Below are positions 1,733 through 37,815 of a stretch of DNA of 38,311 nucleotides, piece after piece (positions within the stretch are counted from its first letter, which is position 1; the number at the start of each line of letters is the position of its first letter). The translations under genes were made by a program, and so were the position numbers. The DNA lies in NCBI GenBank assembly GCA_021824625.1, contig JAKAKE010000085.1:1-38311 (forward strand). The letters run 5' to 3'. The stretch is from Bacteroidota bacterium (GTDB taxonomy: Bacteria > Bacteroidota > Ignavibacteria > Kapaibacteriales > UBA2268). The notes under the pieces were generated by a model, which ran no database searches, was not told the origin of the DNA, and was given only the letters and a program-made list of their open reading frames with translations.

Positions 1733-2815
1733 TTAATATGTTAAATGAGCAGAACGCTTGTATGAAAGTCCTGCATACTTAAAGTCGTCTATGTGTTCTT
1801 TTTTAAATTCGATTCCGGACATCCTGAAGAACTTGGGCCAGCCTATTCTTTCAATCCATTCACCCATTCTTTCGTGCTTATGTGCGTTCTTTGCCCAAAG
1901 CTCCACGAGATTCCTAATTGCATCCGTAACTTCGGGCCAGCGTGGCGGATTATTTGGAATGAAAGGAATCGCAAGTTTCGAGAACATTGGTTCATGCCTT
2001 GCGTTCGATACCTTGCCGCCAATCCAAATCGAAATACCGTCATTAATTGGATTTGCTATCGGTAATGCCGGACAAACTGTGAAGCAGTTTGCACAGTACA
2101 TACATTTATCTTCTAAGATTTCCACACCCTGCTTGCCGTCATAAACCGCGGGCCTGATAGCCGCAGTGGGACATGATGCAATCACATTAGGAACTTCGCA
2201 CATTTTCGGTAAGTTTTCTTTGTCAATCTTTGGCGGACGCCTGTGAATACCAAGTATTGCTATGTCCGAACAATGAACAGCACCGCACATATTCAAACAA
2301 CATGCGAGAGCTATTCTCAGCTTACCGGGGAGTACCATTGTTTTGAAATAATCAATACACTCGTCCATCACTGCTTTTACGATACCCGAAGCATCTGTAG
2401 CAGCAGAGTGGCAGTGAATCCAGCCCTGGGTATGCACGATACTTGTGATTGAATTACCAGTGCCGCCGACGGGATGTCCTAAAGCATTCAATTCTGCTAT
2501 CAGCGGTTCAATGTTTCCTTCTTTGGTTAATAAAAACTCAACGTTGTGGCGTGAGGTAAACCTTAAAAAACCGTCACAGTACTTATCAGCCAATTCAGCA
2601 TATTTTCTGATTTTAACTGTGCTGAGCAATCTCGGTGAACCTGCCCTGACCGTAAATAATTTTGCCCCATTGTCCGCAACATGCATCAGCACGCCGGGAC
2701 GAGGAATTTCATGGTATTTCCATTTACCGTAATTCTCCTTGATAATCGGGGGCAGAAACTTGGAATAATGAGGCGGTCCAATGTCCGTTTTTCTTTGAAG
2801 CACTTCTTCTGCCAT
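1733..2815 (-). CDS. dsrB: Dissimilatory sulfite reductase beta subunit DsrB
   Basis: The 360-residue beta subunit of the siroheme/[4Fe-4S] enzyme DsrAB, which reduces sulfite with DsrC as sulfur acceptor in the cytoplasm. Landmarks are [14 protein letters not shown] (Cys135), [13 protein letters not shown] (Cys172-182, cofactor-binding cysteines), [12 protein letters not shown] (Cys215) and an inserted ferredoxin domain with [12 protein letters not shown] (Cys238, 241, 244, 248). Length is normal for DsrB. It lies 48 bp downstream of dsrA and 16 bp upstream of dsrD, so it is very likely co-transcribed. No truncation or frameshift is seen. Confidence 0.97.
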
Positions 2816-2863
2816 TTTTATTTTCCTTTATTTATTTATAAAATTTTGTTCTTTAATTATAAA

Positions 2864-4075
2864 TTATTTTGTTACTTCTTCACCTTCTTCGAAGTATTCT
2901 TCGTAGAATATGTATGGATTTTCCCTCGGATGAGCCACCATTTCGGCCTGTGGCTCGAGTCCGACAGCATCGAGGAAATTGCCCATGCCGACTCTCTGGA
3001 TGAATTCGCCGATTCTTTCTCTGTTCTTACCATCCTCGCACCAGAGGTCCCACATGTTCTCGATAAGCTCCCAAAGCTCAGATTCTTCGAATGGCTCTTC
3101 AAACTTAATGAATGGAACCATTACGGAAGAGAGTAATGCTCCTTCAACGATGGGTGCTTTTGAACCGACCAGCACTACTGCCCCTCTGTCTTTTCCGGGT
3201 GCCAGTGCTTTCGGCATTACATTTATACAGTGCATGCAGTGGCGGCAGCTGCCGTTGTCAATATCCAATTTTTTCCCGTCCCATTCAATGCACTTGCCTG
3301 GGCACATCATCGCAATCTCTTTTACAATGTCTGTACCATTATCAGCATATTCCCTTACTTTAGCCATATCGACCTGGATTTCATCCCTCCATGTTCCTAT
3401 GATAGATATATCTGCACGTGCAATGGATGCAACGCAGTCATTGGGGCAGCCCGACATTTTGAATTTCATTTTATATGGAAAAGCGGGCCTGTGCAATTCA
3501 TCCTGAAACTTGTTTGTAATGAAATGTGTCAAAGCCATTGTATCGTAGCAAGCCCATTCGCATCTTGCCTTGCCGCAGCAACAGCTTGGAGTTCTAACAT
3601 CGGAACCCGAACCGCCGAGGTCGAATCCTGCATTTGTTAGTTTATTGAAAACCGGTTCCAAGTCTTCCGTCCTTGTACCAAGAAATACAATATCGCCTGT
3701 CGAGCCGTGCATATTCGTTAACCCCGAACCATGTGCATCCCAAATGTCGCAAAGAGTCCTGAGCGCTTCGGATGTATAGAACCATCCCGAAGGTTGATTA
3801 ACACGCATTGTGTGGAAATGAGAAATACTCGGAAATTTTTCGGACAGGTCGGTATATCTTCCTATCACACCGCCTCCGTAACCCATTACCCCAACGATAC
3901 CGCCATGTTTCCAGTGTCCCTTCTTTTCAGTGTAGGACTGTTCGAGTAGTCCCAGAAGGTCATTTGCCATCGGATTTGTTTCGGCTGACGATTTAATCTC
4001 TTTGACGAAACTCGGCCATTCGCCCTTTTCAAGTTCATCCAGCAGCGGGGTTGCATACTTTTTGTCAACTGCCAT
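2864..4075 (-). CDS. dsrA: Dissimilatory sulfite reductase alpha subunit DsrA
   Basis: The 403-residue alpha subunit of DsrAB. Siroheme/[4Fe-4S] ligand motifs are visible as [13 protein letters not shown] (C-x5-C within residues 165-176) and MSGCPNDC (Cys210-x3-Cys214). The inserted ferredoxin domain has MCPGKC (Cys258, 262) and SCRHCMHC (Cys277, 280, 283). The N-terminal substrate region contains [19 protein letters not shown]. The start at ATG 4075 follows an AGGGAG. It is the first gene of dsrA-dsrB-dsrD. The upstream 330 bp hold a terminator of the preceding gene, so the operon should have its own promoter. All key cysteines are intact. Confidence 0.97.
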
Positions 4076-6275: not shown

Positions 6276-6539
6276 ATGAATACAAAAAATAAGAAGATTT
6301 TAAAGAAAATATTTGAAGTGCCAACACGTTCTGATATTGAATGGAGAGAGGTTGAAACATTATTACGTTCTTTAGGAGCAGATATATCCGAAGGTCGAGG
6401 TTCAAGAGTTAGAATTGCTCTATATAAAGTAAGAGCTGTTTTTCATCGTTCTCATCCAAAGAAGGAATCAGACAAAGGAACTATATCATCATTAAAAAGA
6501 TTTTTAATTGAAGCAGGAGTTCATGATGTTGACATATAA
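6276..6539 (+). CDS. hicA: HicA family toxin (mRNA interferase)
   Basis: An 87-residue protein of the HicA family, small dsRBD-fold mRNA-cleaving toxins of type II toxin-antitoxin systems. Diagnostic stretches are WREVETLLRSLGA, EGRGSRVRIAL, VRAVFHRSHPKKE and SSLKRFLIEAGV. This subtype has GSR where others have GSH, with the histidine supplied in FHRSHP. I prefer ATG 6276; a TTG at 6252 could extend it by eight residues but has no better ribosome binding site. It overlaps hicB by 14 bp in the typical toxin-first order. It lies on the opposite strand to the dsr genes, inserted between dsrP and the receiver gene, which suggests acquisition. Confidence 0.88.
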   Translation: MNTKNKKILKKIFEVPTRSDIEWREVETLLRSLGADISEGRGSRVRIALYKVRAVFHRSHPKKESDKGTISSLKRFLIEAGVHDVDI

Positions 6540-6852
6540 AGACTATATAGCGAAAATTAATTTCGATGAAAATGAAAATATTTTTCATGGTGAAATCATC
6601 AACCTAAAGGATGTAATCACATTTCAGGGTAGTTCAGTTGATGAATTGAAAAAAGCGTTCATAGAATCTGTTGACGACTATCTGGAATTTTGCCGAATAA
6701 GAAATGAAAAACCTGACACTCCATTAAACGGTTATGTTTCACTTCAAATACCACTTGAAACACAGAGAAAATTAATAGAAGCAGCGAAAAGGACAGGAAA
6801 AGATTTTGATATTTGGGCAGTTGAGACATTGCAGAAACATGCTATCGTATAG
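6526..6852 (+). CDS. hicB: HicB family antitoxin
   Basis: A 108-residue antitoxin that would neutralise HicA and probably autoregulate the pair. The N-terminal half is the degenerate RNase H-like HicB fold (YIAKINFDENENIFHGEI, SVDELKKAFIESVDDYLEFC). The C-terminal end (YVSLQIPLETQRKLIEAA) looks like a ribbon-helix-helix DNA-binding segment. GGAG at 6516-6519 sits 6 nt before ATG 6526; ATG 6523 and an upstream TTG 6508 are alternatives. It is translationally coupled to hicA through the overlap. Confidence 0.88.
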   Translation: MLTYKDYIAKINFDENENIFHGEIINLKDVITFQGSSVDELKKAFIESVDDYLEFCRIRNEKPDTPLNGYVSLQIPLETQRKLIEAAKRTGKDFDIWAVETLQKHAIV

Positions 6853-6894: not shown

Positions 6895-8055
6895 TTATGT
6901 TGTTTTCAACATTCTCCTTACCGATAATGCTACTTTGTACAGCACTGTAACAATCAACAAACCTACAGCATATATGGAAACAGAAATAGTTGCTTCAACC
7001 CATGTAGGCCAATAATCAGGCACATAACCCAAAGGTGAAGGGATGAATCCCGTTACAACCATTCCCAATCCTTTATCAATCCATATTGACAAAAACACTG
7101 TGATTGCGGCTATGGACAATAACTTTTCATTCTTCCTGTATTTTGGAATCAATAACAGTATCAAAGAAATTATTGCAAATGCAGTGGATAACCACATCCA
7201 GGGAACCAGCCTGTAATTGCCGTCAAGACCGAAATAAAGAAACTGAAAATGCCTTGCATGGTCAGGTATTCCGCTGTAAAGTCCTGTGAATATTTCCATA
7301 AGCAAAAAGAAAATATTCAAAAGCATTGCATAAGTTGTGATGATTGCGAGTTTCTGAATCGGCTCGCTTCCCACATCAAACTTTGTCATTTTTCTTAGCA
7401 AAAGGCAGAGTAAAATCAATAATGCCGGACCCGCAGAAAATGCTGTTGCTAAAAACCTCGGAGCCATCACTGCCGAAAGCCAGAATGGACGTGCCGCCAA
7501 GCCCTGATATAAAAACGCAGTAACAGTGTGAATGCTCACTGCCCACGGAATTGATAAAATCACAACTGGTTTCAACCATTTCGGAGGTGCTATTCCTTTC
7601 TTCTCGCTGTCGAGAGTATATCTGCTTATTATCACATTCAGAACAAGGTAACCTCCAAGCGACACTGAATCCCAAAACATAGGTGAATTTGGCGATGGAT
7701 AAAGAAATACATTAACAATTCTCAGAGGTTGTCCCATGTCAACGAAAATAAAAAGCATACACATAATAACAGCACCGATTGCAAGAAATTCTCCGAGTAT
7801 TGTGATTTTCCCAAAACTCTTGTAATGATGAACATAATAGGGCAACACAACCATCACGGCAGATGCCGCCACACCAACAAGAAACGTGAATTGAGCAATA
7901 TAAAATCCCCATGTAACATCACGGCTCATGCCGGTTACGCCCAAACCTTGATTAAATTGATACATGTATGCAAGTACGCCACAGCCAATTAATATGAGCA
8001 GAAAAATCACCCAAGCCCAATATTTTTTACTACCTGAAAAAGCCAGTTCTAACAT
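6895..8055 (-). CDS. dsrP: DsrP, NrfD-family membrane subunit of DsrMKJOP
   Basis: A 386-residue polytopic membrane protein of the NrfD/PsrC family with about ten hydrophobic segments. It exchanges electrons with the quinone pool for the DsrMKJOP complex. Recognisable regions are VTWGFYIAQFTFLVGVAASA, FIFVDMGQPLRIVNVF, MFWDSVSLGGYLVLN and PWAVSIHTVTAFLYQGLAARPFW. Its start follows GGAG and is 13 bp after dsrO. It is the last gene of dsrMKJOP, ending against the convergent hicAB pair. Confidence 0.95.
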   Translation of the reverse strand: MLELAFSGSKKYWAWVIFLLILIGCGVLAYMYQFNQGLGVTGMSRDVTWGFYIAQFTFLVGVAASAVMVVLPYYVHHYKSFGKITILGEFLAIGAVIMCMLFIFVDMGQPLRIVNVFLYPSPNSPMFWDSVSLGGYLVLNVIISRYTLDSEKKGIAPPKWLKPVVILSIPWAVSIHTVTAFLYQGLAARPFWLSAVMAPRFLATAFSAGPALLILLCLLLRKMTKFDVGSEPIQKLAIITTYAMLLNIFFLLMEIFTGLYSGIPDHARHFQFLYFGLDGNYRLVPWMWLSTAFAIISLILLLIPKYRKNEKLLSIAAITVFLSIWIDKGLGMVVTGFIPSPLGYVPDYWPTWVEATISVSIYAVGLLIVTVLYKVALSVRRMLKTT

Positions 8056-8068
8056 AGTTCCTTCTCCC

Positions 8069-8833
8069 TCATATTATATAATAAATTTCAGGTTGTGTTC
8101 CCAATTCGGGCTTCCTTCTCATTGAAAAATTAGTTCCCAGCATAGTTCTAATCTCTGAATTTGGGTCCTCAAGGTCGCCAAACACCATTGCCTTGTTCGG
8201 ACAGGCTTCTACACAAGCAGGTTTCAGGCCTTTTGCTAATCGTTCATCACAGAAAGTGCATTTTTCGACGACACCTCTTGTCCTTGTCGGAAAATCAGGA
8301 TTCAATTGTTTGATATGTGGACGAGGTTCCCTCCAATTGAAGCTTCTCGAACTATAAGGACAAGCCGCCATGCAATACCTGCAACCGATACAGCGATGCC
8401 AGTCCATCATTACAATTCCATCCTTGCGTTTCCATGTCGCCTGAGTGGGGCAAACATTCACGCATGGCGGATTTTCGCAATGATTACAAAGTAATAGTGC
8501 AGGTTTATTTTTTATATCTGATGGGATATACTCATTTTCCTGCTCTATAAAAGCATGTTCAAATTTCTCTTTCCAAATCCATTTAATCTCATCTTTCTTA
8601 TTATTAAAGTGAGGCACATTGTGAGTACTGTGACAGGCTTCTATGCACTTCGTACAGCCTTCGGTCTCATGGCATTTTTTCAGGTCAACTACCATTGCCC
8701 AGCGTTTGCAGGCAAAGCCCTCTGATTTTCTGGCTTCAGCTTCGGCAAATACTTTCAAAGTTTGTTTGCCTGCTACACCAAGAGCTAAAGTTCCACCTGC
8801 TATTGCTAAAAATTTTCTTCTGTTTATACTCAT
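8069..8833 (-). CDS. dsrO: DsrO, periplasmic ferredoxin-like subunit of DsrMKJOP
   Basis: A 254-residue iron-sulfur protein with a twin-arginine signal (NRRKFLAIAGGTLALGVAG, Arg5-Arg6), so it is exported folded to the periplasm. Four cysteine groups typical of the DmsB/NrfC-like family are visible: CHETEGCTKCIEACH, CNHCENPPCVNVCP, CIGCRYCMAACP and CTFCDERLAKGLKPACVEACP. It would pass electrons between DsrJ and DsrP. Its ATG overlaps the dsrJ stop as ATGA (8830-8833), indicating translational coupling, and GGAG precedes it. Confidence 0.96.
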   Translation of the reverse strand: MSINRRKFLAIAGGTLALGVAGKQTLKVFAEAEARKSEGFACKRWAMVVDLKKCHETEGCTKCIEACHSTHNVPHFNNKKDEIKWIWKEKFEHAFIEQENEYIPSDIKNKPALLLCNHCENPPCVNVCPTQATWKRKDGIVMMDWHRCIGCRYCMAACPYSSRSFNWREPRPHIKQLNPDFPTRTRGVVEKCTFCDERLAKGLKPACVEACPNKAMVFGDLEDPNSEIRTMLGTNFSMRRKPELGTQPEIYYII

Positions 8834-9246
8834 TTCATTATCTCCTTCTTTACAAGCGACGGATCAATATGGCAGTCCCAGCAATAAGGTTTCACATCAA
8901 GATAATTATGACATTCGTCGCAGAATTTCGCCTTGTTTTCATGGCATTTCATACATGTTTTCGTTAAGCTCATTTCAGCTTTCACACCATTAAGCAAAAA
9001 ATAAGTTCCATCTGCTTTTTTCAGAAATCTTACATCCTGCCTTACCACTTTATCCCTCCATGTATTCAGCATCTCCATATGGTAGTCTTTCATGTACTCT
9101 CTGCTCTCGATGCACTTTCCGCTCTGAGGAAGTTGAGGATTAGCTTTCACTGATGATTTTCCTCCTGCCAAATTAATCAGTATCGGCGATGTAAATAAAA
9201 GTATGAATATTAATATTCCAATTAAAACTTTTCCTGTGTCGTACAT
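8830..9246 (-). CDS. dsrJ: DsrJ, triheme cytochrome c subunit
   Basis: A 138-residue membrane-anchored periplasmic cytochrome. An uncleaved-looking hydrophobic N-terminus (residues about 7-27) is followed by the conserved CIESREYMKDYHMEMLNTWR region, whose Cys45 corresponds to the unusual cysteine heme ligand known in DsrJ. Three CXXCH sites follow: CMKCH (98-102), CDECH (109-113) and CWDCH (122-126). It starts 1 bp after dsrK behind a strong AGGAGG. Family membership is clear from the triheme pattern and operon position. Confidence 0.95.
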   Translation of the reverse strand: MYDTGKVLIGILIFILLFTSPILINLAGGKSSVKANPQLPQSGKCIESREYMKDYHMEMLNTWRDKVVRQDVRFLKKADGTYFLLNGVKAEMSLTKTCMKCHENKAKFCDECHNYLDVKPYCWDCHIDPSLVKKEIMK

Positions 9247-9247
9247 A

Positions 9248-10858
9248 TTATAGAACCTCCTTCCGGGGTAAAGGATTATTTCTCAAATCGGTCATTCTTT
9301 CCTTCTCCCCTTTCATCACAAGAGCATTACCGACAAGTTCATGAATACCTGCAACCTCAACTCCCGGCACCCAATATTGCAGAAGTGGAGGAAGTGTAGC
9401 CTTATCAATAGCACAAATACATGTCAATAAATTTACACCGTTGTTTTCAGCGACGTATTTAACTGCATTTGCCCTGGGGAAACCACCTCTCATCCTCATC
9501 TCGAAGTTTTCTTCTGTACCAAGACCTGCACCGCTCCCACAGCAGAAAGTCTGCTCTCTTATTGTATTGTCGGGCATTTCTGTGAAGTTGTTCAATACAT
9601 TTTCAAGTATATATCTCGGCTCCTCGAATAGTCCCATTGCCCTTGCAGGATTGCATGAATCATGGAATGTTGCATTCCAATGATTGTTTCTGCTTTTATC
9701 TAATTTAATTTTATTATTCTTGATTAAATCGGCTGTGAACTCTGTAATATGAACCATCTTTGTTGAACGGGTATTTTCGAACACAGTTCCCGTGATTGGT
9801 GATTTGGGTACTTCCAAAAAATCAGCGGGGCCATTGAGTGTATCCATGTATTGATGAAGCACCCGCCACATGTGCCCGCACTCGCCCCCGATAATCCATT
9901 TTACCTTGAGCCTTTTTGCTTCGGCATATATTTTAGCATTCAATGCCTTCATCAATTCATGGGAAACAAACGAGCCGAAATTACCACCCTCTGAGGCAAA
10001 AGATGAAAATGTAAAATCCAATCCTATTTCATGGAACAGCGCCATATATCCGAGAAGGGTGAAATAATGAGGCTCTCCAAAATAATCGGCAGATGGTATA
10101 ACAAATAAAATTTCTGCACCCTTCTTGTTTATTGGAGTCTCAACCCTGATGCCTGTCAAATCTTCGAGGTCGTCTGCAGCAAATTCTATCGAATCCTTGA
10201 ATCCGTGAGGTTGAATCCCGAGGTGATTTCCTGTCCTGTGGCAATTTGAAACAGGCGTCATCACCCAGTCAATGTTAACGCCAATCAGGTTCATCAGCTC
10301 ACGTGCAAGAAATGTAATTTCCGCTGTGTCAATACCGTAAGGACAGAACACAGAACATCTTCGGCATTGAGTGCATTGATAAAAATAATAGAACCATTCT
10401 TTCAATACATCAAATGTAAGTTCAGTTGCACCTGCCATTCCAGCCATAAGCTTGCCTGCGAGAGTAAATTCTTTCCTATAGACTGCTCTCAGAAGTTCAG
10501 CTCTCAGCACCGGCATATTCTTCGGGTCGCCTGAGCCAATAAAGAAATGGCATTTATCCGCACAAGCTCCGCATCTTACGCATATATCCATGAACAATTT
10601 CAGAGAACGGAATTTATCAATCCTTTCCCGAAATCCTTCGAGAATAATTTCCTTCCAGTTCTCCGGCAGTTTCCAGTCTTCATCATAAGGCTGCCACTTT
10701 CTCGGATTAGGCTGATGAACATATTTTAGGCTTTCGGGATTTCCTCCATAATTGTATGTTCCTTTTTTATATTCAACCGGATTATCAATCCAGTGTTTCT
10801 TCGGAGGTTTATAACTGATTGTCTGAGCTAATTCTTCCGGTTTCATCTTAAGAGACAT
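9248..10858 (-). CDS. dsrK: DsrK, HdrD-like catalytic subunit of DsrMKJOP
   Basis: A 536-residue cytoplasmic iron-sulfur protein of the HdrD family, thought to reduce the DsrC trisulfide. Two [4Fe-4S] ferredoxin-type motifs are present: CVRCGACADKCH (Cys93-103) and CTQCRRCSVFCP (Cys162-172). The C-terminal half carries the CCG-type region with TFHDSCNPARAMG and QTFCCGSGAGLG, expected to bind the special catalytic [4Fe-4S] cluster. Its start overlaps dsrM by 11 bp and has an AGGAGG. Length and motifs are complete. Confidence 0.96.
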   Translation of the reverse strand: MSLKMKPEELAQTISYKPPKKHWIDNPVEYKKGTYNYGGNPESLKYVHQPNPRKWQPYDEDWKLPENWKEIILEGFRERIDKFRSLKLFMDICVRCGACADKCHFFIGSGDPKNMPVLRAELLRAVYRKEFTLAGKLMAGMAGATELTFDVLKEWFYYFYQCTQCRRCSVFCPYGIDTAEITFLARELMNLIGVNIDWVMTPVSNCHRTGNHLGIQPHGFKDSIEFAADDLEDLTGIRVETPINKKGAEILFVIPSADYFGEPHYFTLLGYMALFHEIGLDFTFSSFASEGGNFGSFVSHELMKALNAKIYAEAKRLKVKWIIGGECGHMWRVLHQYMDTLNGPADFLEVPKSPITGTVFENTRSTKMVHITEFTADLIKNNKIKLDKSRNNHWNATFHDSCNPARAMGLFEEPRYILENVLNNFTEMPDNTIREQTFCCGSGAGLGTEENFEMRMRGGFPRANAVKYVAENNGVNLLTCICAIDKATLPPLLQYWVPGVEVAGIHELVGNALVMKGEKERMTDLRNNPLPRKEVL

Positions 10859-11864
10859 GGCTTTCCTCCTTATCTAACGGCATACCCGCTCCCTTCATCA
10901 CTGTCCTGAACTCATCTTCGTATTCTTCGTAAGTATGCGGCTTCATCTTTAATTCATCTATCCATGGGTTAACATGCCTTACCATCCTGTTTGTATTAGC
11001 AAGGTTTCTTGTGGGACTCATAAATATCCCGGTCAAATGCACCAGTTTACTCATAGGGAAATAAATCAAGAGTGAGCAAACAAAGAACAAGTGTAGATAG
11101 AACCAGGAGCTTAAACCAACAGCATGTACAGATGGCGAAAAGCTTAGAATACCCAGCATCAATTCTTTAACAGCAACAAGGTCTGTCTTGAAAAAATATC
11201 TCATTAATATTCCCGTGATTGCAATCCCCGATATTAACAGTAGGGGAAAATAATCTGACGGCAAAGAAATATATCTGATTTTAGAATCAAACACACGCCT
11301 GAAAAACAAGTATGAGAGAGCTGCTACAATTACACAATCTGTAATATATATAATCGGAACCCATATCTGGAAAAACCCGTCTATTTCCTGCAAATAAGGA
11401 ACAAAGAATGGTATCGGTTGTGTGAAAAACCTGAAGTGTCTCAGGAAAATTATTAAAAATGACCAGTGAAATGCAAGGCTGAAAAGCCAGAGCCATTTGT
11501 TTGCCCCGTAAGTCAGATTTGGCCCTTCTTTCAATTCCGCTTTCGTATTTCTGAACAATGAACGGAAGAACAGCACTTCCAGAGCCATCCTGCCAAGCAC
11601 ACCAAGATATGAACTCGGATTATCGAGTCGGTTCTGCTTGATGAATGACAATGATTTCTGCTGGCCGCCCGTTGTCGGAATGCGAAAGGGAACCGGCGAG
11701 CGAGCCCATATTACAATTCGAACAATAATACCGACAATAAACACCGTTATTGCTATATATGGTATTATCACAGCGAAAACGTAATTCAATCCGGGGACGT
11801 TCGCTCCTATTAAGCCGAGCAGTGTGAGTGCGGCTAATGCAACTAACGAAAACCAGATTCCCAT
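10848..11864 (-). CDS. dsrM: DsrM, cytochrome b (NarI-like) subunit
   Basis: A 338-residue membrane protein with an N-terminal extension of two hydrophobic segments and a NarI-like cytochrome b core. Candidate heme-ligand histidines lie in LAFHWSFLIIFLRHFRFF and near SKLVHLTGIFMSPTRN. It takes electrons from menaquinol and delivers them to DsrK. It is the first gene of dsrMKJOP; the upstream 400 bp contain palindromic elements and presumably the promoter. The short cytochrome b gene at 18.6-19.3 kb is a distant second member of this family in the window. Confidence 0.94.
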   Translation of the reverse strand: MGIWFSLVALAALTLLGLIGANVPGLNYVFAVIIPYIAITVFIVGIIVRIVIWARSPVPFRIPTTGGQQKSLSFIKQNRLDNPSSYLGVLGRMALEVLFFRSLFRNTKAELKEGPNLTYGANKWLWLFSLAFHWSFLIIFLRHFRFFTQPIPFFVPYLQEIDGFFQIWVPIIYITDCVIVAALSYLFFRRVFDSKIRYISLPSDYFPLLLISGIAITGILMRYFFKTDLVAVKELMLGILSFSPSVHAVGLSSWFYLHLFFVCSLLIYFPMSKLVHLTGIFMSPTRNLANTNRMVRHVNPWIDELKMKPHTYEEYEDEFRTVMKGAGMPLDKEESHVS

Positions 11865-11964
11865 TAAAAATTATCCTTAATTTATTATCAATTAATTTTA
11901 TTTTAAATATTTTTCATTTTACTATGCTGAGTCAATTAACTCCGACAATGGACTTTTTTTTTAT

Positions 11965-12094
11965 TGAATAGCCGCTATCTTCAGATAGTGGAGGTTTTTT
12001 TGTAGGGACACAAAATTTTGTGTCCCTACATTCAAGGAAAAATCCCGATTCGTTATCATAAACCGTCCCACTACTTAAAAGTAGTGGCTATTCA
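11965..12094. repeat. Composite palindromic element, copy 1
   Basis: A 130-bp unit bounded by perfect 9-bp inverted repeats, TGAATAGCC (11965-11973) and GGCTATTCA (12086-12094). It contains three nested palindromes: CCGCTATCT/AGATAGTGG (11972-11991), a 30-nt perfect palindrome whose arms are TGTAGGGACACAAAA and TTTTGTGTCCCTACA (12001-12030), and CCACTACTT/AAGTAGTGG (12068-12087). A related copy lies at 37646-37759. REP-like dispersed elements of this type are non-coding. Confidence 0.85.
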
Positions 12095-12215
12095 TCAATA
12101 TTAAACTTCTTAAATTCTTGCAATAAATTGAAGTGCAAATTATATACTGTAATGAGGGTGTTGTAAAATAGTATTTGGAAATTATTATTATTAATATCGT
12201 ATTAATAATGCACCG

Positions 12216-12255
12216 CCTTATCGTCTGATAAGGTTCTGCTGCCGATTAAGGCAGC
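12216..12255 (+). other. Two adjacent hairpins before the NYN pseudogene
   Basis: CCTTATC/GATAAGG (12216-12233) and GCTGCC/GGCAGC (12238-12255); the second is followed by ATTTTTTTTATTT, a terminator-like layout on the plus strand. They lie just before ATG 12274, so they may be a relic of an upstream gene, a leader attenuator, or a dispersed repeat. Confidence 0.5.
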
Positions 12256-12273
12256 ATTTTTTTTATTTAAATA

Positions 12274-12918
12274 ATGAAAAGTGTAACATTTTATTTTGAT
12301 GGCTTTAATTTTTATTATGGTCTTCGTAATCAAGTCCGTAAAGATAGGATTTGGAAAAAGTATTATTGGATAGATTTTATTAAATTCTGCGAACAATTTC
12401 TAGGTACTGACCAAATGATTCTAAAAGTCAAGTACTTTACTGCTGCACCTCTTAATGCAGGTAAACAAAGCAGACAGAGTGCATTATTCAAAGCTAATAA
12501 ATTAATTAATGATGATAAATTCGAGATTATAAGAGGAAAATATTACAAAAAAAGCATTCAATGCCAAATTTGAAATCAGTTATTTTATATCCCTGAAGAG
12601 AAGCGAACAGATGTGAATATATCAGTTCATTTAATAGGTGACATTTCACTCAATAAAACAGATATTGCTATTTTGATTAGTGCTGATAGTGACTTAGTTC
12701 CAGCTATTGAATTTATAAATGAAAACTTTAATGAAAAGAAAATAAAAGTTTACTTTCCACCTAGTAATTCAAGTACCGATTTATTTAATGCTATAAATCG
12801 TAAAGTTGTTTTTCTTGATAACAATAAATATAAATTTGAAAATAGTATAATGCCAGATATAGTATATGATAAAGATAAAACTGATTTTGCAACGATTCCC
12901 CAAAAATGGAAAATATAA
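12274..12918 (+). pseudogene. NYN-domain (PIN-like) protein interrupted by one in-frame TGA
   Basis: The sequence from ATG 12274 to TAA 12918 is one continuous reading frame except for TGA at 12571-12573. The first part (SVTFYFDGFNFYYGLRN) has the N-terminal acidic motif of NYN-domain ribonucleases and the second part (DIAILISADSDLVPAIEF) has the second acidic motif, so both halves belong to one protein of about 214 residues. At the break the frame reads SIQCQI-stop-NQLFYIPEEKRTDVNI; the stop takes the second position of an apparent Cys-x2-Cys pair. Nonsense mutation or a sequencing error is the likeliest explanation; recoding is an outside possibility, as no convincing SECIS-like hairpin follows. 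Other genes in the window end normally at TGA, so the genetic code is standard. Confidence 0.8.
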
Positions 12919-12965
12919 TTTATTATATAGTACTTATTTAAAGTGAATTATTTAAGTTAACTTAT

Positions 12966-13895
12966 TCACGCTTCTTCAAAGTAATCTATATCTATCTTCT
13001 TAACCTCGTAATTAGATTTTGATGCAAGACCTATGTTATATTCAATCATTAAATCAGCAAGTTCCTTACCGTCAATCAAAATAATTTTTGGTTCAATTTG
13101 TGCAACAAAATCATAAGCACTTTTGGGATAATTTGATGTTGAAATAAAAATACCCTTCTTTGCTTTCTTTGATAGAAGAGAACCTGCAAAATCTCTTATT
13201 TGACCTACGGGAACAGTATTATCCCATTTTTTTGCCTGTACATAAATTGTATCAAGTCCTAATTTATCTTCTTTGATAATTCCGTCAATTCCTCCATCAC
13301 CTGATTTCCCGATAATCTGCCCCGCTTCCTTTTTTGAACCACCATAACCCATTTTGATTAATAAGTCAATAACCAACCGTTCAAAAAATCCTGGAGTACA
13401 ATTTTTTATTTTCTCAATTATATCAGATGCTAATTCATCTTTTAATCTGGCAAATGAATAATCTAAAAGTTCTTCAGGAGTTTTTTCACTTTCAATTCCA
13501 ACTTCGATATGAGAATTAGAATTTTCATCTTTTCTGGCTTGGTAAGATGTCTGATAAGATGTTTGCCATTCTTTAAATTCAGGTAGTTCCTGTAGAAATT
13601 TAATATCAATACGTTTCGGTTTACTTGCTAAAACCTTTTTTCCCTTATCAGTTATTTTGTAAACAGCCCTTCTTGGTTTATCAATTAATTGAGCTTTTTT
13701 TAAATATGTTCTTGACCACCCAACACGATTATTAATTATTTCTTGGTTTCCGCTGGGTAAAAGTTCTTTGCGCTCATCATCGGTTAATTCAAATTTGATT
13801 GAGATTTGTGTGATTAAATCTTGCAGTTCATGTTCTTGACCATCACCCAAAACTTCTAATAAAGGCAGCATTATTGTTTGGAAATCAGGTATCAT
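12966..13895 (-). CDS. mrr: Mrr-family restriction endonuclease
   Basis: A 309-residue protein with an N-terminal Mrr_N winged-helix domain (residues about 6-95, including VGWSRTYLKKAQLIDKPRRA) and a C-terminal Mrr_cat PD-(D/E)xK nuclease domain (about 165-290). Catalytic residues are Asp204 in GDGGIDGII and Gln220-x-Lys222 in YVQAKKW. Mrr enzymes are type IV restriction nucleases that cleave modified or foreign DNA. It is intact and stands alone among an NYN pseudogene and a MjaI-like nuclease, forming a small defence patch between the two dsr-related clusters. Confidence 0.9.
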   Translation of the reverse strand: MIPDFQTIMLPLLEVLGDGQEHELQDLITQISIKFELTDDERKELLPSGNQEIINNRVGWSRTYLKKAQLIDKPRRAVYKITDKGKKVLASKPKRIDIKFLQELPEFKEWQTSYQTSYQARKDENSNSHIEVGIESEKTPEELLDYSFARLKDELASDIIEKIKNCTPGFFERLVIDLLIKMGYGGSKKEAGQIIGKSGDGGIDGIIKEDKLGLDTIYVQAKKWDNTVPVGQIRDFAGSLLSKKAKKGIFISTSNYPKSAYDFVAQIEPKIILIDGKELADLMIEYNIGLASKSNYEVKKIDIDYFEEA

Positions 13896-14055
13896 AAATA
13901 TTTTTTGTAATAGTGAAGTAAATATGATTAATTACAACTATTTCTTAACGTTTTACGAAATTTACATACAAATAAATTAAAATGCAATTAATATTTTTAT
14001 TAGATTTGACACTGAAAAAAAGCAGAATGAATTTAAATTTTCAATACTTAGAATA

Positions 14056-14565
14056 ATGTACGAAAATCAAATACAAAATATATTAAAAGAAAATCCACAA
14101 ATTCAAGAAATACTTGGTAAGGTTCTACACAAGAGACTTATTAATGAATTGAAAACAAATCTTTATGATTTCTCAGAACAAGAATGTATTAATTATATTC
14201 ATAATATTACATCTTTTAGTAAACTTGCTGGATATATAAGACAAAATTCTGCTATTTATGATAATTTAGCTAAACTTTTTCCAACTTTAAATCTTGAAGA
14301 AATAGAACCAGAGTATGAACATTCTTTAGATATTGATTATACAGCAAGAGTTGGTAACAATTCTATTGGATTTCAAATCAAACCTATTACTGCAAAATAT
14401 AGCTTTGCAAATTATTCGCCAACTGAAAGAATGAAAGCCGGTTTTAAGGAATTTAAAGAAAAATTTGGTGGAAATGTTTTTATAATTTTTAGCTTAGATG
14501 GTGAAATTGGGAATGAAGATATAATCACCGAAATCCAATCCGAAATTGAAAGATTGAGTAAATAA
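14056..14565 (+). CDS. Probable type II restriction endonuclease, MjaI-like
   Basis: A 169-residue protein with a PD-(D/E)xK-like core, LDIDYTARVGNNSIGFQIKP (Asp92/Asp94, Gln107-x-Lys109), followed by RMKAGFKEFKEKFGGNVFIIF. This resembles the C-terminal half of the MjaI restriction endonuclease family. No cognate DNA methyltransferase is in the window, and I cannot tell whether the protein is full length or lacks an N-terminal part. An unprotected active nuclease would be harmful, so it may be inactive, truncated or protected from elsewhere. The start at ATG 14056 has no strong ribosome binding site. Assignment is from motif pattern only. Confidence 0.6.
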   Translation: MYENQIQNILKENPQIQEILGKVLHKRLINELKTNLYDFSEQECINYIHNITSFSKLAGYIRQNSAIYDNLAKLFPTLNLEEIEPEYEHSLDIDYTARVGNNSIGFQIKPITAKYSFANYSPTERMKAGFKEFKEKFGGNVFIIFSLDGEIGNEDIITEIQSEIERLSK

Positions 14566-14573
14566 TGTAATTT

Positions 14574-15086
14574 CTATTCTCTCTCCCCATACTTCTCATT
14601 CAATCTGTCCACCATCTTGCCGTATCTGGCTTTGACTTCACCCGCTTTGATTTCAAATACTTTCTCTTTCAGTCCAACATATATATCAAATGCAAGCGAG
14701 ACAGCCTGGTCAATCCTCGATTCAAAATCCAACACTTCCCCGAAAAGCATTTTATCCTTCTCATCATGATGATACTCTTTCCTGATGATTTTCTTCAGTA
14801 AATAGAAAAAACCGACAGCTTCCGAAGGTGAGAAATCCTGCACGGTTCTGATTTTTATTATATCTTCTATAGCTGTATTGAGTTTCTGCGGGTCAGTGGG
14901 AACGATTAGCTCATCTAAAATTTCAGGAAGACGAACTGAGAAGGTATATCCAACCGGATTGCCGAATTGATTTTTATTTTCGAACAGGAATTTACCTGCT
15001 TCATCTGGATAGGTCTCAATTACGGCTTTGAGCCATTTCTCTGCGATTTGGCTTTTGCGCTGCTCCAGTATTTCGTGAAATTTCAT
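14574..15086 (-). CDS. RsbRD_N-domain protein associated with the DsrMK-like module
   Basis: A 170-residue, mostly helical soluble protein resembling the RsbT co-antagonist RsbRD N-terminal domain (residues about 5-145: ILEQRKSQIAEKWLKAVIETYP, YTFSVRLPEILDELI, SPSEAVGFFYLLKKIIR). Proteins of this type occur next to dsrMK-like genes in sulfate reducers, and related domains act as non-heme-globin-like sensors in stressosome proteins. It lies 173 bp downstream of the kinase gene on the same strand, so it is plausibly part of the same regulatory unit. The C-terminal tail is charged and likely helical. Function is inferred only from the domain and its neighbours. Confidence 0.75.
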   Translation of the reverse strand: MKFHEILEQRKSQIAEKWLKAVIETYPDEAGKFLFENKNQFGNPVGYTFSVRLPEILDELIVPTDPQKLNTAIEDIIKIRTVQDFSPSEAVGFFYLLKKIIRKEYHHDEKDKMLFGEVLDFESRIDQAVSLAFDIYVGLKEKVFEIKAGEVKARYGKMVDRLNEKYGERE

Positions 15087-15259
15087 AATTCAGGAAAAAT
15101 CAGTTCAATTCAAAAATAACATATATAATATTTCACTCAATGATATAATCAAGTATGAGTGCAATTATAAAATTCCCTACTTTTTCATATAAAATGAAAT
15201 GTATTTTTCTGTCTGTAATGTGGATGTTGTATTAATATGATAATTTATTTTGTAGAATT

Positions 15260-16693
15260 TCAATTTCTCTTCAGCTTCACCAAAAACCTCGCCCCCTGTC
15301 CGGGCTCAGCTTCGACTGTGATTTCACCTCCATGTTCATCTACTATTTTTTTAACTATCATCAACCCGAAACCGCTTCCGCCGCTCCCTTTGGATGAATA
15401 CATTGTAGTGAATAACTTGCTTTTCACATCAGGTTCAATTCCGACTCCATCATCCGATATTTCAAGTTTAATTGTGCTGTCAGTCTCGCTGAGATGAATG
15501 CAGATTTCATGAGCTTGTTTTTCTTTATCCCAGATGCAGGCATGAATAGCATTCTCTACTAATGTTAATATTAATGTATAAAGAGATTTTTTATCACCAA
15601 AGTACGTTTGCAATTCAGAAATTTCAAGATTAACTTTAATATTATTGTCCTTGAATTTCTTAGTGTATAAATCGTGGATTTCCCGGCAGAATTGGTCAAT
15701 CTTCACTTCTTCCTTCTCAGGCAGTCGCTCCTTTGCAAAGTAAAGCATGTCTAATACCAAATGTGAAATCCTTTCCACATTTCGCTGGACCATGTCCCAG
15801 CCCTTCTTGACAGTCGTATCCTGCTTATTGCGAAAACCCGAATCAACAACATACATGCCACCTTCCAAACCCGTAACGATACCCTTAATCGTGTGGGCAA
15901 GACTCGATACAAGCTGTCCGAGGTGTGTCATCTGTGTATTGGAATTCATCAGGTTCGTTATGTTTGTGGACATTTCCATTACAGAATTGATATTCCCCCG
16001 GTTATCCCTGATAGGTGTAGCATATACGAGCATATTAATAGGCTCGCCTTTTTTTGAAGAAACTATTTCTTCGCTGAAATGCACGTTCCCGTCCTCAAAT
16101 ACCTTTGCAACAGAGCAGACTTCACACCTTTCATTTCTTTTTTTATACACCTTGTAGCAGTATTCCCCCGGCGAGCCCCCGAATTCATCCTTGAACTGCT
16201 TATTCACATCAATAAGCCTGAAATTCCTGTCCTGCACCGAGATGTAGCAGGGTACTTCATCATAAAGAGTGCGGTATTTTTCGGAGCTTTCTTCGAGCTT
16301 TCTCTGGAGCCGTTTAGTCTCTGTGATATCAGTTGCCATTTCCATGATGGCAACTATATTACCTGTATCATCCCTAACCGGGGCAACATTAACAATCACA
16401 TTAATCGGCAATCCCTCCTGCGAAAATACTATTTCCTCGCTCTCGTGGATTCGCCCGTCAATGAACACACTGTCCATTGGACAAACCTCGCACTTTTCAT
16501 CACGAAGTTTATAAACCGTATAACATGGCTCTCCCAGCCTGTCCCCAAATGTTTCCCTGAATCTTCGGTTGGCTTTTATAATACTGTGGCTCCTATCCTG
16601 AAGGGATATGTAGCATGGCACTTCCTCGAAAAGCAGTGCATCCGGTATTTTGAACGATTCGTAGTCCATCGCTTCAAAAGATGCAAAAGACAA
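15260..16693 (-). CDS. Sensor histidine kinase with two cysteine-rich PAS domains
   Basis: A 477-residue soluble kinase without obvious membrane segments. PAS1 (about 17-130) and PAS2 (about 140-250) each carry the same four-cysteine pattern: VPCYIS (Cys27, Cys149), E-x-CY (Cys57, Cys179) and C-E-V-C (Cys68/71, Cys190/193). The transmitter follows, with His267 in LAHTIKG, the N box NAIHAC (Asn381), DDGVGI and [13 protein letters not shown]. The repeated cysteines suggest a metal, Fe-S or thiol redox sensor; that is inference. It starts 2 bp after the DsrK-receiver fusion gene, so the receiver is the obvious phosphorylation target. The start is TTG 16693 or ATG 16669; neither has a strong ribosome binding site. 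Confidence 0.93.
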
Positions 16694-16695
16694 AT

Positions 16696-18450
16696 TTACT
16701 TCTTATGCTTGTAATGGTCAAGCACTTTATCAATTATCATCAATAATTCTTCTTTGACGATTGGTTTTTCCACATACCCTTCGGGCTTTGGCAATGAATG
16801 TTCAAATTGAAGCTTACGCATGTCGTACAATCCCGGATTTTCCGGATTGACACCGCTTATTACAACAACCGGAATATCCCGGTTCGCTCCGTCAGTCTTC
16901 AAATCCTTGTATATATCCAACCCCGAAACACCCGGCATAATCAAATCGAGTGTAATCAAATCCGGCTTCGCTGTTTTCAGCCACGCAAAAGCCTCAGCCG
17001 CACTCGTCGCTTCAAGAGTATTATAGCCGCTATCCTGAAACAGTGTCGAAAGGAATGTAACCACATCAGGCTCATCGTCAATAACCATAACCGTAAACGG
17101 TGCGTGAGCTTCGACAACCTCCTCAATAACCGGTATAACGGGTTTCTTCTCCCAGACAATAGCATCTGCTACTAACTCACCCACCAGATTCACCTTCATT
17201 CCAAGTTTATAAAATTTGATTAAGTCAGTCAATCCGTCCACGCAATTGTGGCAGGCAGTAGCACAAATACCGGCTCCTGTTTCTTTCAATTGGTCAGCCT
17301 TTACTTTTGCCGATTCCAATCTTCTTTTAGCATATTCGGACATAGACATTGCACCGCCGCCGCCCGTACAGCAAAAGTTATCAGCACGATTAGGATACAT
17401 CTCCCTGAAATCCATCACACTCTGCTGGAGCAAAAATCTCGGTTCTTCCGTTATGCCTCCGCTCCTGGCAAGATTGCATGGGTCATGGTATGTAACCGAA
17501 ACAGGATTTTTTGTCTTATCAAGTATAATTCTTCCCGTCTTCACATAATCAACCATGATTTCAAGAAAGCTGTACATCGGAAATTTCAAATCGCGTGCCG
17601 CCCAGTTGGGTGCTTCCCATACTGTTGCCCTGTAGCCATGCCCGCACTCCGAGGTTACAAGCATTTTCCCGTTCAGTTTCTCAACCGTATCATAAACGAG
17701 ATTGCCCATATGCGCACCCAATTTATTATCTCCCGCGAACAATCCAAAGTTTGTATTGTCCCATCCTTTTGTCGAAGACATTGTCCACGACTCTCCTGCT
17801 ACATGAAATATTTTTGCTGCGGCAAGCAAACTCATCGGAGCATATTTAATCTCTCTCGGATTCACAGCAAACACAATGTTGCAGTTCGGTTTGTCGAGCG
17901 GTATTTCTGCAGTATCATCATCAAGCTCGGATTTGATTTCTTCATTCAGCCATTCAATCGTTTCGAGGTAATCTTCATCCGAAATACCCATCTGATTGCC
18001 GATTTCCCATTGGTCTTTTGCTACGTCCAGAACACCCTGTGGTGCATAACCCTGCTCATAAATTATTGCCCTGCCGGTTCTCATCAGCAATGCTTTATCA
18101 ACACCCATAGGACAGTTGAAAGTGCAACGGCGGCACATTGTACAGCTCCCGAAAACAATGTCCATTAACTCCTGAAGGTCTTCATCCTTTTCAAGCTCGC
18201 CGCCGCCAACCCACTTGGGAAGCAATCTTCCTGCAAAATCGAAGTATTTCTTATAAAGTTTCCTCACTCTGTCGGCTTTGTAAGCAGGTGCCATTTTTGG
18301 GTCCCTTGTAGCAAGGTAATAATGGCAGGATTCGGTACACATGCCGCAATGCACACATACGCCAAACGAAAGAATTGCCTGGCGGTTCATTTTATTTTTA
18401 AAAGAATCAGTTGCTTTCTGTGCTTTCTCACTTTTTTGACGATTTGACAT
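16696..18450 (-). CDS. HdrD/DsrK-like Fe-S protein fused to a response-regulator receiver domain
   Basis: A 584-residue fusion. Residues about 25-435 are a full HdrD/DsrK-type protein: CVHCGMCTESC (Cys32-42) and CTMCRRCTFNCP (Cys103-113) bind [4Fe-4S] clusters, and the CCG-type region has YHDPCNLARSGG, NFCCTGGGGAMSM (Cys360-361) and CATACHNC (Cys396-403). Residues about 453-580 form a complete receiver domain with Asp458/Asp459, phosphoacceptor Asp502 (LDLIMPG), Ser532 and Lys562 (VEKP). Both halves look functional. It is followed at once by the PAS kinase gene and preceded by a NarI-like cytochrome b gene, so electron transfer and phosphorelay appear physically linked. A sequencing artefact is unlikely because the frame is continuous through the linker (EKKPVIPVIEEVVEAHAPF). 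Confidence 0.95.
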   Translation of the reverse strand: MSNRQKSEKAQKATDSFKNKMNRQAILSFGVCVHCGMCTESCHYYLATRDPKMAPAYKADRVRKLYKKYFDFAGRLLPKWVGGGELEKDEDLQELMDIVFGSCTMCRRCTFNCPMGVDKALLMRTGRAIIYEQGYAPQGVLDVAKDQWEIGNQMGISDEDYLETIEWLNEEIKSELDDDTAEIPLDKPNCNIVFAVNPREIKYAPMSLLAAAKIFHVAGESWTMSSTKGWDNTNFGLFAGDNKLGAHMGNLVYDTVEKLNGKMLVTSECGHGYRATVWEAPNWAARDLKFPMYSFLEIMVDYVKTGRIILDKTKNPVSVTYHDPCNLARSGGITEEPRFLLQQSVMDFREMYPNRADNFCCTGGGGAMSMSEYAKRRLESAKVKADQLKETGAGICATACHNCVDGLTDLIKFYKLGMKVNLVGELVADAIVWEKKPVIPVIEEVVEAHAPFTVMVIDDEPDVVTFLSTLFQDSGYNTLEATSAAEAFAWLKTAKPDLITLDLIMPGVSGLDIYKDLKTDGANRDIPVVVISGVNPENPGLYDMRKLQFEHSLPKPEGYVEKPIVKEELLMIIDKVLDHYKHKK

Positions 18451-18515
18451 CTTAACAATCCAAAATTTTTTTACATAATTTAATTTCTAATCTACCCGCT
18501 ATTTATGTCTTATTC

Positions 18516-18554
18516 GCGAACTTTGCGTTTACTTTGCGTCTTTGCGGGAAATAA
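18516..18554. repeat. Dispersed 'actttgcg' repeat between the cytochrome b and DsrK-like genes
   Basis: The patch gcgaactttgcgtttactttgcg... resembles the one at 6090-6128 and a fragment near 28396. It is followed by 'attctgaaccaacttcagaatgac' and 'cataattcataattc' sequence, both typical intergenic debris. The 188-bp gap therefore looks like repeat accumulation, which may separate the two genes transcriptionally. Confidence 0.55.
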
Positions 18555-18638
18555 ATATGGATTCTGAACCAACTTCAGAATGACTTTCAATCCAACTCCC
18601 ATTTCCCATTTCCATTCTTTTAACTCAACATTCATAAT

Positions 18639-19283
18639 TCATAATTCCCCTTTCACCTTGGGATATGTTCCCCTATGCCCAAAATGCTTTCCAAAATAAT
18701 ACCTCGAAAAGGGCCAAAGGATATAATGCGACATCTTGCTGAACGGAACATATGCAATCAAAAAAGCCGTAATAGCAAAATATGCCGGAAATTGCCAGTG
18801 GCTCTCGTTCATGTCCATAGCAAAAAATGCAACAAAAAACCAAATCACCATCATTGCAACCGAGAAATAATCATCAGGATGGCTTATAAGTTTATTGACA
18901 GGTGAAAACATCCTTCTTCCGAGACGGAGCAGTACTATGAAAAATGACATTGCAATTATTATTTTGAAAATGGTTACAACTGCCGCTGTCATTAATCCCG
19001 GTGCTTCAGGAATAAGGAAAGATGCAACAATTGCAATTGCTATTCCAATATGGAAAACCGCAAACTCAAGCCATTTATACCACTTTTTCCTGGTGCTTTC
19101 CATTGTCCAGGGCATTGCCAGGCAAAAGAAAGATGCAATAATTGCTTTCTTCTCCATTCCCCTGCCGGGAGTTCTTTCTTTCATCGGTTTGAATCTTAAA
19201 ATCCAGAACACTTTGAGAATATAGACCAAACCCATAATGGATAAAGCAACATACTGAACTTCATGCTTCAGCAACTCTAACAT
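18639..19283 (-). CDS. NarI/DsrM/TmcC-like cytochrome b membrane subunit
   Basis: A 214-residue membrane protein with about five hydrophobic segments, resembling the cytochrome b subunits that partner HdrD-like proteins (DsrM, HmcE, TmcC, NarI). Candidate heme-ligand histidines lie in FAVFHIGIAIAI and in the C-terminal SKMSHYILWPFSRYYF segment. It is shorter than DsrM at 10.8-11.9 kb and lacks that protein's N-terminal extension. A GAGG precedes ATG 19283. It is the first gene of the module with the receiver-fused DsrK-like protein and would connect it to the quinone pool. The exact family name cannot be fixed by eye. Confidence 0.85.
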   Translation of the reverse strand: MLELLKHEVQYVALSIMGLVYILKVFWILRFKPMKERTPGRGMEKKAIIASFFCLAMPWTMESTRKKWYKWLEFAVFHIGIAIAIVASFLIPEAPGLMTAAVVTIFKIIIAMSFFIVLLRLGRRMFSPVNKLISHPDDYFSVAMMVIWFFVAFFAMDMNESHWQFPAYFAITAFLIAYVPFSKMSHYILWPFSRYYFGKHFGHRGTYPKVKGEL

Positions 19284-37606: not shown

Positions 37607-37645
37607 GATTTGTTCTTTCAACTAATATATTCAATGAATTGTAGA

Positions 37646-37759
37646 TGAATAGCCACTACATTTATGTATTGGAAATTGTTGCGGGGTTCATTATAGTTAG
37701 CGGCTAAAGTCCGGCTCCTTCAGGCAAGTAACCCACCGTCTGAAGATATTGGCTGTTCA
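37646..37759. repeat. Composite palindromic element, copy 2
   Basis: A 114-bp unit bounded by TGAATAGCC (37646-37654) and GGCTGTTCA (37751-37759; one mismatch from the matching end of the 11965-12094 copy). It includes CCACTACAT/ATGTATTGG (37653-37672) and an inner AGCGG...CCGGCT near-palindrome. It fills the gap between the DsrC-like and DsrE-like genes and may insulate them. Confidence 0.75.
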
Positions 37760-37815
37760 AAAGAAAAAATTGAATTTGAATTTTTTGAATTTTTTTTATA
37801 AATAAGGAAAATATT

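Follow-up and report, generated by a model that had tools for sequence, protein, structure and literature searches.

The Hmc and Tmc membrane complexes of Desulfovibrio and its relatives are the described systems closest to the locus reported here. An excerpt of PMC5109826 places the Hmc and Tmc genes of D. multivorans, as in D. vulgaris, beside three regulators and four kinases. An excerpt of PMC4215793 gives Tmc a role in H2 use and describes the cytoplasmic partner of both complexes as unknown, with DsrC or ferredoxin suggested. Complexes of this kind beside separate kinases and regulators are already known; what sets the present locus apart is a receiver domain fused to the Fe-S subunit itself. 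The locus lies in a stretch of 38,311 nucleotides (nt) from a Bacteroidota bacterium of the Ignavibacteria (Kapaibacteriales, UBA2268; GCA_021824625.1, contig JAKAKE010000085.1, positions 1 to 38,311), hereafter the window, and its three genes encode a cytochrome b, a PAS histidine kinase and, between them, an Fe-S/CCG protein that ends in a receiver domain (the fusion). Scanning genome contigs gave 133 confirmed relatives of the fusion, of which the best 80, together with the window, make up the 81 loci compared below. Our favoured reading, which we hold to be evenly balanced between right and wrong, is that the unit could be a menaquinone-thiol module of the TmcBC/HmcEF-like type in bacteria with reductive Dsr, gated by phosphorylation of its Fe-S subunit. 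An earlier note on this DNA knew of no characterised system with this layout. That holds for the fusion, for which no report was found in the open-licence literature (subscription journals lay mostly outside the search). It needs qualifying for the surroundings, since Hmc/Tmc clusters beside kinases and regulators are in print (in the same excerpt of PMC5109826) and the window's own genome has an unfused Hmc-like cluster with a kinase. The features of the unit are as follows.

18639..19283, minus strand: cytochrome b subunit, 214 amino acids (aa), TmcC/HmcE-like (open reading frame, ORF; adjoins the fusion upstream in 81/81 loci)
16696..18450, minus strand: fusion protein, 584 aa, HmcF/TmcB/DsrK-like Fe-S/CCG part with C-terminal receiver (profiles, alignment, tree and structure model)
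18100..18357, minus strand: two predicted [4Fe-4S] sites, C32/35/38/42 and C103/106/109/113, aa 32-117 (Fer4_8; each Cys in 81/81)
17242..17496, minus strand: CCG domain, aa 319-403, C325-C360C361-C400xxC403, expected to hold an HdrB/D-type catalytic cluster (each Cys in 81/81)
16720..17091, minus strand: receiver, aa 454-577, with D458, D459, D502, S532 and K562 (Pfam and alignment)
16945..16947, minus strand: codon of Asp502, predicted phospho-acceptor (Asp in 81/81)
15260..16669, minus strand: histidine kinase, PAS-PAS-DHp (dimerisation and histidine phosphotransfer)-CA (catalytic and ATP-binding), from an ATG preferred over the TTG at 16693 that opens the 477-aa ORF

The earlier note had described an HdrD/DsrK-like Fe-S protein joined to a complete receiver, and this description was borne out. 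Pfam assigned Fer4_8 to aa 32-117, CCG to aa 319-403 and Response_reg to aa 454-556 (67 bits), and the best named relatives in NCBIfam were HmcF (319 bits), TmcB (300 bits) and DsrK (262 bits). The best curated family for the receiver was NF045717 (the DVU0259 family), at 87 bits and thus below its cut-off of 160. In the alignment of the window with the 80 loci, D458, D459 and K562 are kept in 80/80 rows with a residue there, D502 is Asp in every fusion, and position 532 is T in 65 and S in 16; the acid pair, predicted phospho-Asp, T/S and Lys of an active receiver are accompanied by a receiver fold. Each of the eight cysteines of the ferredoxin part and each of the CCG cysteines is likewise kept throughout, and two 4Fe-4S motifs, a full CX34CCX38CXXC motif and a matching fold mark this part as CCG/HdrD-like. 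Since both the receiver pocket and the Fe-S/CCG cysteines are invariant, both halves of the fusion are under selection.

The predicted structure of the fusion has a mean predicted local distance difference test (pLDDT) score of 87 and a predicted template modelling score of 0.71, with a disordered linker at aa 437-449 (pLDDT < 50); the structure-model alignments comprised 66 and 61 rows, and identity of the relatives to the window fusion was 49-93% (65 aligned rows). The modelled CCG part resembled EtfD best (9ojn; Z 28.6, 389 aligned residues, 3.1 A), followed by LutA (Z 23.8) and HdrB (Z 20.2-21.5), and the modelled receiver resembled many receivers (Z about 18-20). These VIA-align values re-examine Foldseek's list and speak only for the families in it. 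The tree of the CCG part took in 34 of the 81 fusions, and all 34 lie on one side of a branch with a Shimodaira-Hasegawa-like approximate likelihood ratio test value of 99, apart from HmcF-like proteins, DsrK and a second CCG family; nearest to them are unfused proteins of L081, L088 and L126. The tree of receivers only was poorly resolved (132 columns, 159 rows), with three changes needed for the fusion receivers.

The gene order, whose absence from related genomes the earlier note had named in advance as counting against it, is present far beyond the window. The relatives cover almost the entire fusion query, though L036 and L104 are truncated at contig ends, and they represent at least 12 phyla: Bacteroidota, Ignavibacteriota, Zixibacteria, Acidobacteria, Thermodesulfobacteriota, Planctomycetes, Calditrichota, Gemmatimonadota, Electryoneota, Poribacteria, Abyssobacteria (placed in Hydrogenedentota) and Elusimicrobia. 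These names follow the record titles of the metagenome-assembled genomes, and loci titled only 'Deltaproteobacteria' or 'Proteobacteria' were left out of the phylum count. The closest relatives of the window fusion are L029 and L030, from records titled Bacteroidetes and Ignavibacteriae. The fusion is an old, shared gene, and the 80 further loci rule out an assembly artefact or a chance fusion. The cytochrome b gene lies directly upstream of it in all 81 loci. Of the 77 loci that could be judged, 73 have the PAS kinase as the next gene downstream, 72 of them by ORF matches and L091 by the kinase start at its contig end; the stretch ends too early in L036, L073, L076 and L104. ORFs were called mechanically, and the gaps between them are set by the first start codon. 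Gene order, domain make-up, invariant residues and co-occurrence with dsrA are all read directly from the sequences.

Tabulation of the neighbours, which the earlier note had proposed, brought out further recurring partners, namely an upstream macro-domain protein, a stand-alone receiver and a transcription regulator. Most often the unit opens with the macro-domain gene (PF01661), which is absent from the window: 65/81 loci have it directly upstream of the cytochrome b gene, 14 (the window among them) do without it, and two are cut off at that point. In the CCG tree, 21 macro-bearing loci form one subclade (support 100) and 13 macro-less loci lie outside it. The macro proteins mostly keep the GDIT, GSGFG and GFYG signatures, with FYAxxDL at the position of the Asn-rich motif that MacroD hydrolases carry; given this replacement, our guess is that the protein binds its ligand without hydrolysis.

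The earlier note had called the membrane subunit a NarI-like cytochrome b. Cytochrome b it is, but 'TmcC/HmcE-like' is the better label, because Pfam gave no match and NCBIfam gave weak matches to TmcC and HmcE (36 bits each, both far below the cut-offs); the NCBIfam scan listed no DsrM match for this protein. Only H78 (80/80) and H186 (81/81) are conserved in its alignment, and this single invariant His pair suggests that the subunit probably binds one heme b. By eye in the alignment, the window's DsrM and the HmcE-like cytochromes of L114 and L119 have four His, i.e., two pairs. On the NarI scheme, the kept pair would ligate the cytoplasm-proximal heme. A subunit pair with a single heme and without cytochrome c would suit electron exchange between quinone and the cytoplasm better than a circuit to the periplasm.

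As the earlier note had it, the kinase carries two cysteine-rich PAS domains. Pfam found both, with CxxC cysteines, and HATPase_c at 84.5 bits, leaving HisKA unmatched. H267 is kept in 69/69 rows and N381 and D414 in 67/67, the N and G boxes are intact, and H267 lies inside helix 246-288 of the kinase structure model; the H box, N box, G boxes and DHp helix of a histidine kinase are thus all present. The four-Cys set is found in 71/72 rows for PAS2 and 53/72 for PAS1; in the two kinases examined beside Hmc-like clusters (L114, L119), the first of these PAS cysteines is missing. Because the sequence contains no hydrophobic segment, the kinase should sense in the cytoplasm. Its start was formerly placed 2 bp after the fusion gene. 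That spacing needs the TTG start, whereas the kinases of L029 and L030 begin at an ATG equal to the window's Met9 at 16669, which makes a spacing of about 26 nt more likely.

The same early description counted a fourth gene, encoding an RsbRD_N protein, into the unit. All four ORFs do lie on the minus strand, and Pfam confirms RsbRD_N (69 bits), but its membership did not hold. RsbRD_N was sought in 30 genomes; 28 matched, giving 27 distinct loci (G022 and G042 are one place), and in 24 of the 27 it stands directly upstream of dsrM on the same strand, 60-307 nt apart, which rules it out as a unit member. The three exceptions are the window, L128 (a same-genus genome with no dsrM within 1.5 kb) and L137 (contig end). 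Genomes with dsrA and without the fusion (G008, G010, G011) keep the RsbRD_N-dsrM pair. Given this pairing, RsbRD_N is best regarded as part of the dsr operon that merely borders the unit, as also in L058. In the window, RsbRD_N and dsrM are separated by 2.7 kb including an Mrr nuclease gene. The corresponding genes of the window are listed below.

14574..15086, minus strand: RsbRD_N protein, 170 aa, dsrMKJOP operon gene (Pfam and neighbour analysis)
6895..11864, minus strand: dsrMKJOP, each gene above its NCBIfam cut-off
10848..11864, minus strand: dsrM
9248..10858, minus strand: dsrK
8830..9246, minus strand: dsrJ
8069..8833, minus strand: dsrO
6895..8055, minus strand: dsrP
1733..4075, minus strand: dsrA (2864-4075) and dsrB (1733-2815)

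The stretch between dsrM and RsbRD_N (11865-14573) is probably an insertion into the operon; it holds the Mrr-type restriction endonuclease gene (12966-13895) and, at 12274-12918, two short plus-strand ORFs that by eye look like one broken NYN-type gene. Directly after dsrB, an 82-aa ORF (1468-1716) had no match in Pfam or NCBIfam and appears by eye and by position to be a DsrD-like winged helix.

The unit co-occurs with dsrA and without the oxidative marker DsrF. The dsrA match exceeded the cut-off in 65 of 80 host genomes (37/40 and 28/40). Among 40 relatives, the fusion occurred in six, all with dsrA, while dsrA was found in 3/34 without the fusion (Fisher p 2e-5, for related genomes that are not independent). 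DsrF was tested in 46 hosts and DsrD in 50, all chosen for having dsrA; DsrF exceeded its cut-off in 0/46, with one weak match (G086), in contrast to 4/4 dsrA-bearing genomes of family f29, by inference the green sulfur bacteria. A phylum sample of 395 genomes contained 59 with dsrA, 57 of them from this family, and a search for the fusion at E 1e-110 in these 59 matched only the window's own genome. We did not keep a connection with oxidative Dsr, as DsrF was above its cut-off in 0/46 hosts and 57 dsrA-bearing f29 genomes gave no fusion match at that threshold. In L058, a Zixibacterium, one strand carries dsrA, dsrB, a cobB-like gene, a gene for an NAD(P)-binding protein, dsrC with a CX10C tail, the macro gene, cytochrome b, fusion, kinase, RsbRD_N and dsrMKJOP. 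DsrC-like genes were found in the examined stretch of four of the 81 loci (L058, L070, L076, L106). L106 has a double-DsrC gene (9754-10497) that begins 10 nt after the fusion, and in L070 a tandem-DsrC gene (6068-6715), assigned as such because its protein is 60% identical to that of L106, stands just before the macro gene and overlaps it.

From these features we infer every reaction of the following model and its direction, which carrier and cofactors take part, and what phosphorylation does. Menaquinone and a thiol/disulfide carrier in the cytoplasm, most likely of the DsrC pool, would exchange electrons through the unit. The one-heme cytochrome b would hold the Fe-S protein at the inner membrane face, and the CCG cluster would carry out the thiol chemistry. 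The soluble kinase would read cytoplasmic redox through its cysteine-bearing PAS domains and then phosphorylate Asp502; this could, by way of the flexible linker, alter how the Fe-S subunit docks or how active it is. Kinase phosphorylation may in this way gate electron flow, one of the two options that the earlier note had put forward. The stand-alone receiver, where present, might drain or share phosphate, and the macro-domain protein, where present, might add ADP-ribose or NAD-related input. A wider proposal is more doubtful, and we regard it as rather more probably wrong than right: that in reductive-Dsr bacteria from many phyla a two-component system has a respiratory subunit as its terminal output, with menaquinone-DsrC flow switched by aspartyl phosphorylation of the catalytic Fe-S subunit, sensing by a cysteine-PAS kinase, coupling to NAD/ADP-ribose through the macro protein and no transcription involved.

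Several observations weigh against the menaquinone-thiol reading. Four loci have no kinase beside the fusion: L034 has no kinase match within 373 nt, a stand-alone receiver follows the fusion in L081 and L088, and the tandem-DsrC gene takes the kinase's place in L106. Among the 80 hosts, dsrA is present only as contig-edge fragments in five (G061, G089, G102, G107, G115), and ten have no or only a weak match (G044, G064, G087, G091, G093, G095, G108, G112, G114, G116); in one of these ten, G112, the locus L101 has dsrO- and dsrP-like genes near the unit. Three dsrA-bearing relatives lack the unit yet have dsrM, so that the unit is accessory. The usual reductive marker, DsrD (PF08679), was found in only 7/50 dsrA-bearing hosts and not in the window's genome, and the reductive direction thus rests on the lack of DsrF. 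In addition, 76/81 loci have no DsrC-like gene in the examined stretch, the window's own being 19 kb away, so that the DsrC partnership rests on four loci, and the tandem-DsrC proteins of L106 and L070 lack the last tail cysteine in both domains. A single heme could mean no quinone reaction at all, and a receiver can serve as a docking domain without gating catalysis. The window's DsrC/TusE-like ORF (37289-37606) keeps only the last tail cysteine and is followed by a DsrE-like ORF (37816-38298, by eye); the two form a second sulfur-relay group near the window's end (37289-38298).

The alternative that survives best, though we consider it unlikely, is that the unit is a redox sensor complex. 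The cytochrome b-fusion pair would read quinone/thiol redox for the kinase instead of contributing much to respiration, a stand-alone receiver with a regulator would be the output, and the fused receiver would act as a contact or feedback site, in the manner of a regulatory hydrogenase with its kinase. The neighbourhood offers candidates for such an output. A regulator gene on either strand lies within 4.5 kb in 52/81 loci and none in 29 (Rrf2 in 25, a MerR helix-turn-helix joined to a receiver in 18 and a sigma-54 activator in 14, some loci having two), and a stand-alone receiver lies within 3.7 kb in 55/81, on the same strand in 51, each of its five pocket positions being intact in 58-60 of 60 rows; the labels of both come from profiles built on neighbour clusters. 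Against this reading stands the invariance of all Fe-S/CCG cysteines, and an enzyme of HdrD size would be a costly sensor. The unfused pair of L126, with no kinase or receiver within the 3.3 kb examined, suggests that the redox job came first, and a second cytochrome/CCG pair that follows the unit in some loci resembles an electron-transfer set.

That second module (e.g., L089:12498-15037) consists of a membrane protein without a Pfam or NCBIfam match and a DsrK-like CCG protein (329 bits), and its CCG part is found after the unit, on the same strand, in 10/81 loci. L126 (2-3008), a receiver-less sister, came from the phylum sample and not from the best 80; it has a cytochrome b, a CCG protein with 42% identity and then, by eye, a cysteine-desulfurase-like gene. 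Receiver-less relatives are under-sampled here because the loci were ranked by their match to the full fusion. The window also has a stand-alone receiver of 162 aa between dsrP and dsrA (5175-5663), distant from the unit's receivers; as the window lacks the usual stand-alone receiver beside the unit, this protein might serve the kinase.

It is improbable, in our judgement, that the unit is an ordinary Tmc/Hmc complex to which a regulator happens to be fused, running a circuit to a periplasmic cytochrome c without special control of the enzyme. HmcF and TmcB are indeed the closest profiles, and separate kinase and receiver genes stand beside an Hmc-like cluster in the same genome. Nevertheless, all scores are below the family cut-offs and the cytochrome b has one His pair. 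An ORF with at least two CxxCH motifs occurs within 4.5 kb in only 3/81 loci, on the other strand in L040 and L088 and on the same strand in L091, which argues that no multiheme cytochrome belongs to the unit; some stretches were short for this count, and in the window no such ORF (tmcA-type) was found within 4.5 kb. The count was made separately because the neighbour clustering may divide a family and did not show the fusion as one cluster, so that absence from it is weak evidence. The Hmc-like cluster in question (L114; G000 C179) has an unfused CCG protein, a separate receiver, an HmcE-like cytochrome and a divergent 601-aa kinase with a second receiver. Slightly less probable still is a phosphate-independent receiver that docks or oligomerises, recruiting the kinase or fixing the Fe-S subunit to the membrane with phosphorylation incidental. 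Pseudo-receivers of this sort do exist, and the long flexible linker of the model speaks for this reading; against it, pseudo-receivers usually lose some pocket residues, whereas D458, D459, D502, T/S532 and K562 are kept in every covering row.

If the menaquinone-thiol module is indeed gated at its Fe-S subunit, respiratory control would be post-translational, without transcription; our results suggest that dsrA-bearing bacteria may adjust respiration by direct phosphorylation of a respiratory protein. The fused receiver provides one residue, Asp502, for testing control of a CCG-type membrane complex. The fusion also marks a cassette, often with a macro gene, that is common to little-studied dsrA-bearing Zixibacteria, Acidobacteria, Ignavibacteria, Planctomycetes and others, and to which no function was found to be assigned. 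Elsewhere in the window, an ORF at 447-920 resembles an IS200-type transposase by eye and is flanked by ORFs at 126-347 and 947-1272 that consist of near-identical repeats.

Set against known systems, the unit shares with Tmc and Hmc an HmcF/TmcB-type Fe-S/CCG subunit, a TmcC/HmcE-type cytochrome b and a receiver nearest to NF045717 (DVU0259), and in the excerpt of PMC5109826 kinase and regulator genes likewise adjoin the complex. It differs in its fused receiver, single heme-ligand pair, macro-domain gene and lack of a recurring cytochrome c gene. Membership of Tmc was rejected on TmcB (300 versus a cut-off of 735 bits), TmcC (36 versus 240 bits) and the lack of a recurring tmcA-type gene, and that of Hmc on HmcF (319 versus 750 bits), HmcE (36 versus 275 bits) and one His pair instead of two. 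DsrMK is similar in combining a cytochrome b with a CCG protein, in co-occurring with dsrA and in having DsrC as proposed partner. However, the window's DsrM keeps two His pairs and the window has a separate, true dsrMKJOP; membership was rejected on DsrK (262 versus 400 bits) and a cytochrome b without a DsrM match (cut-off 300 bits). EtfD, LutA and HdrB have the fold of the fusion's Fe-S/CCG part at an identity of at most 20%, their aligned chains covering residues to about 436 and no receiver.

Among signalling proteins, CheB and PleD are response regulators with enzymatic output, and as in the fusion their receiver is covalently tied to an enzyme; in the present unit, however, the enzyme is a redox subunit within a membrane pair, with the receiver at its C-terminal end. 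In regulatory or sensory hydrogenases, a redox enzyme is genetically tied to a kinase and acts as the sensor; it is not known to carry a fused receiver. The unit resembles them in pairing a redox enzyme with a kinase and differs from them in carrying a receiver on the enzyme itself.

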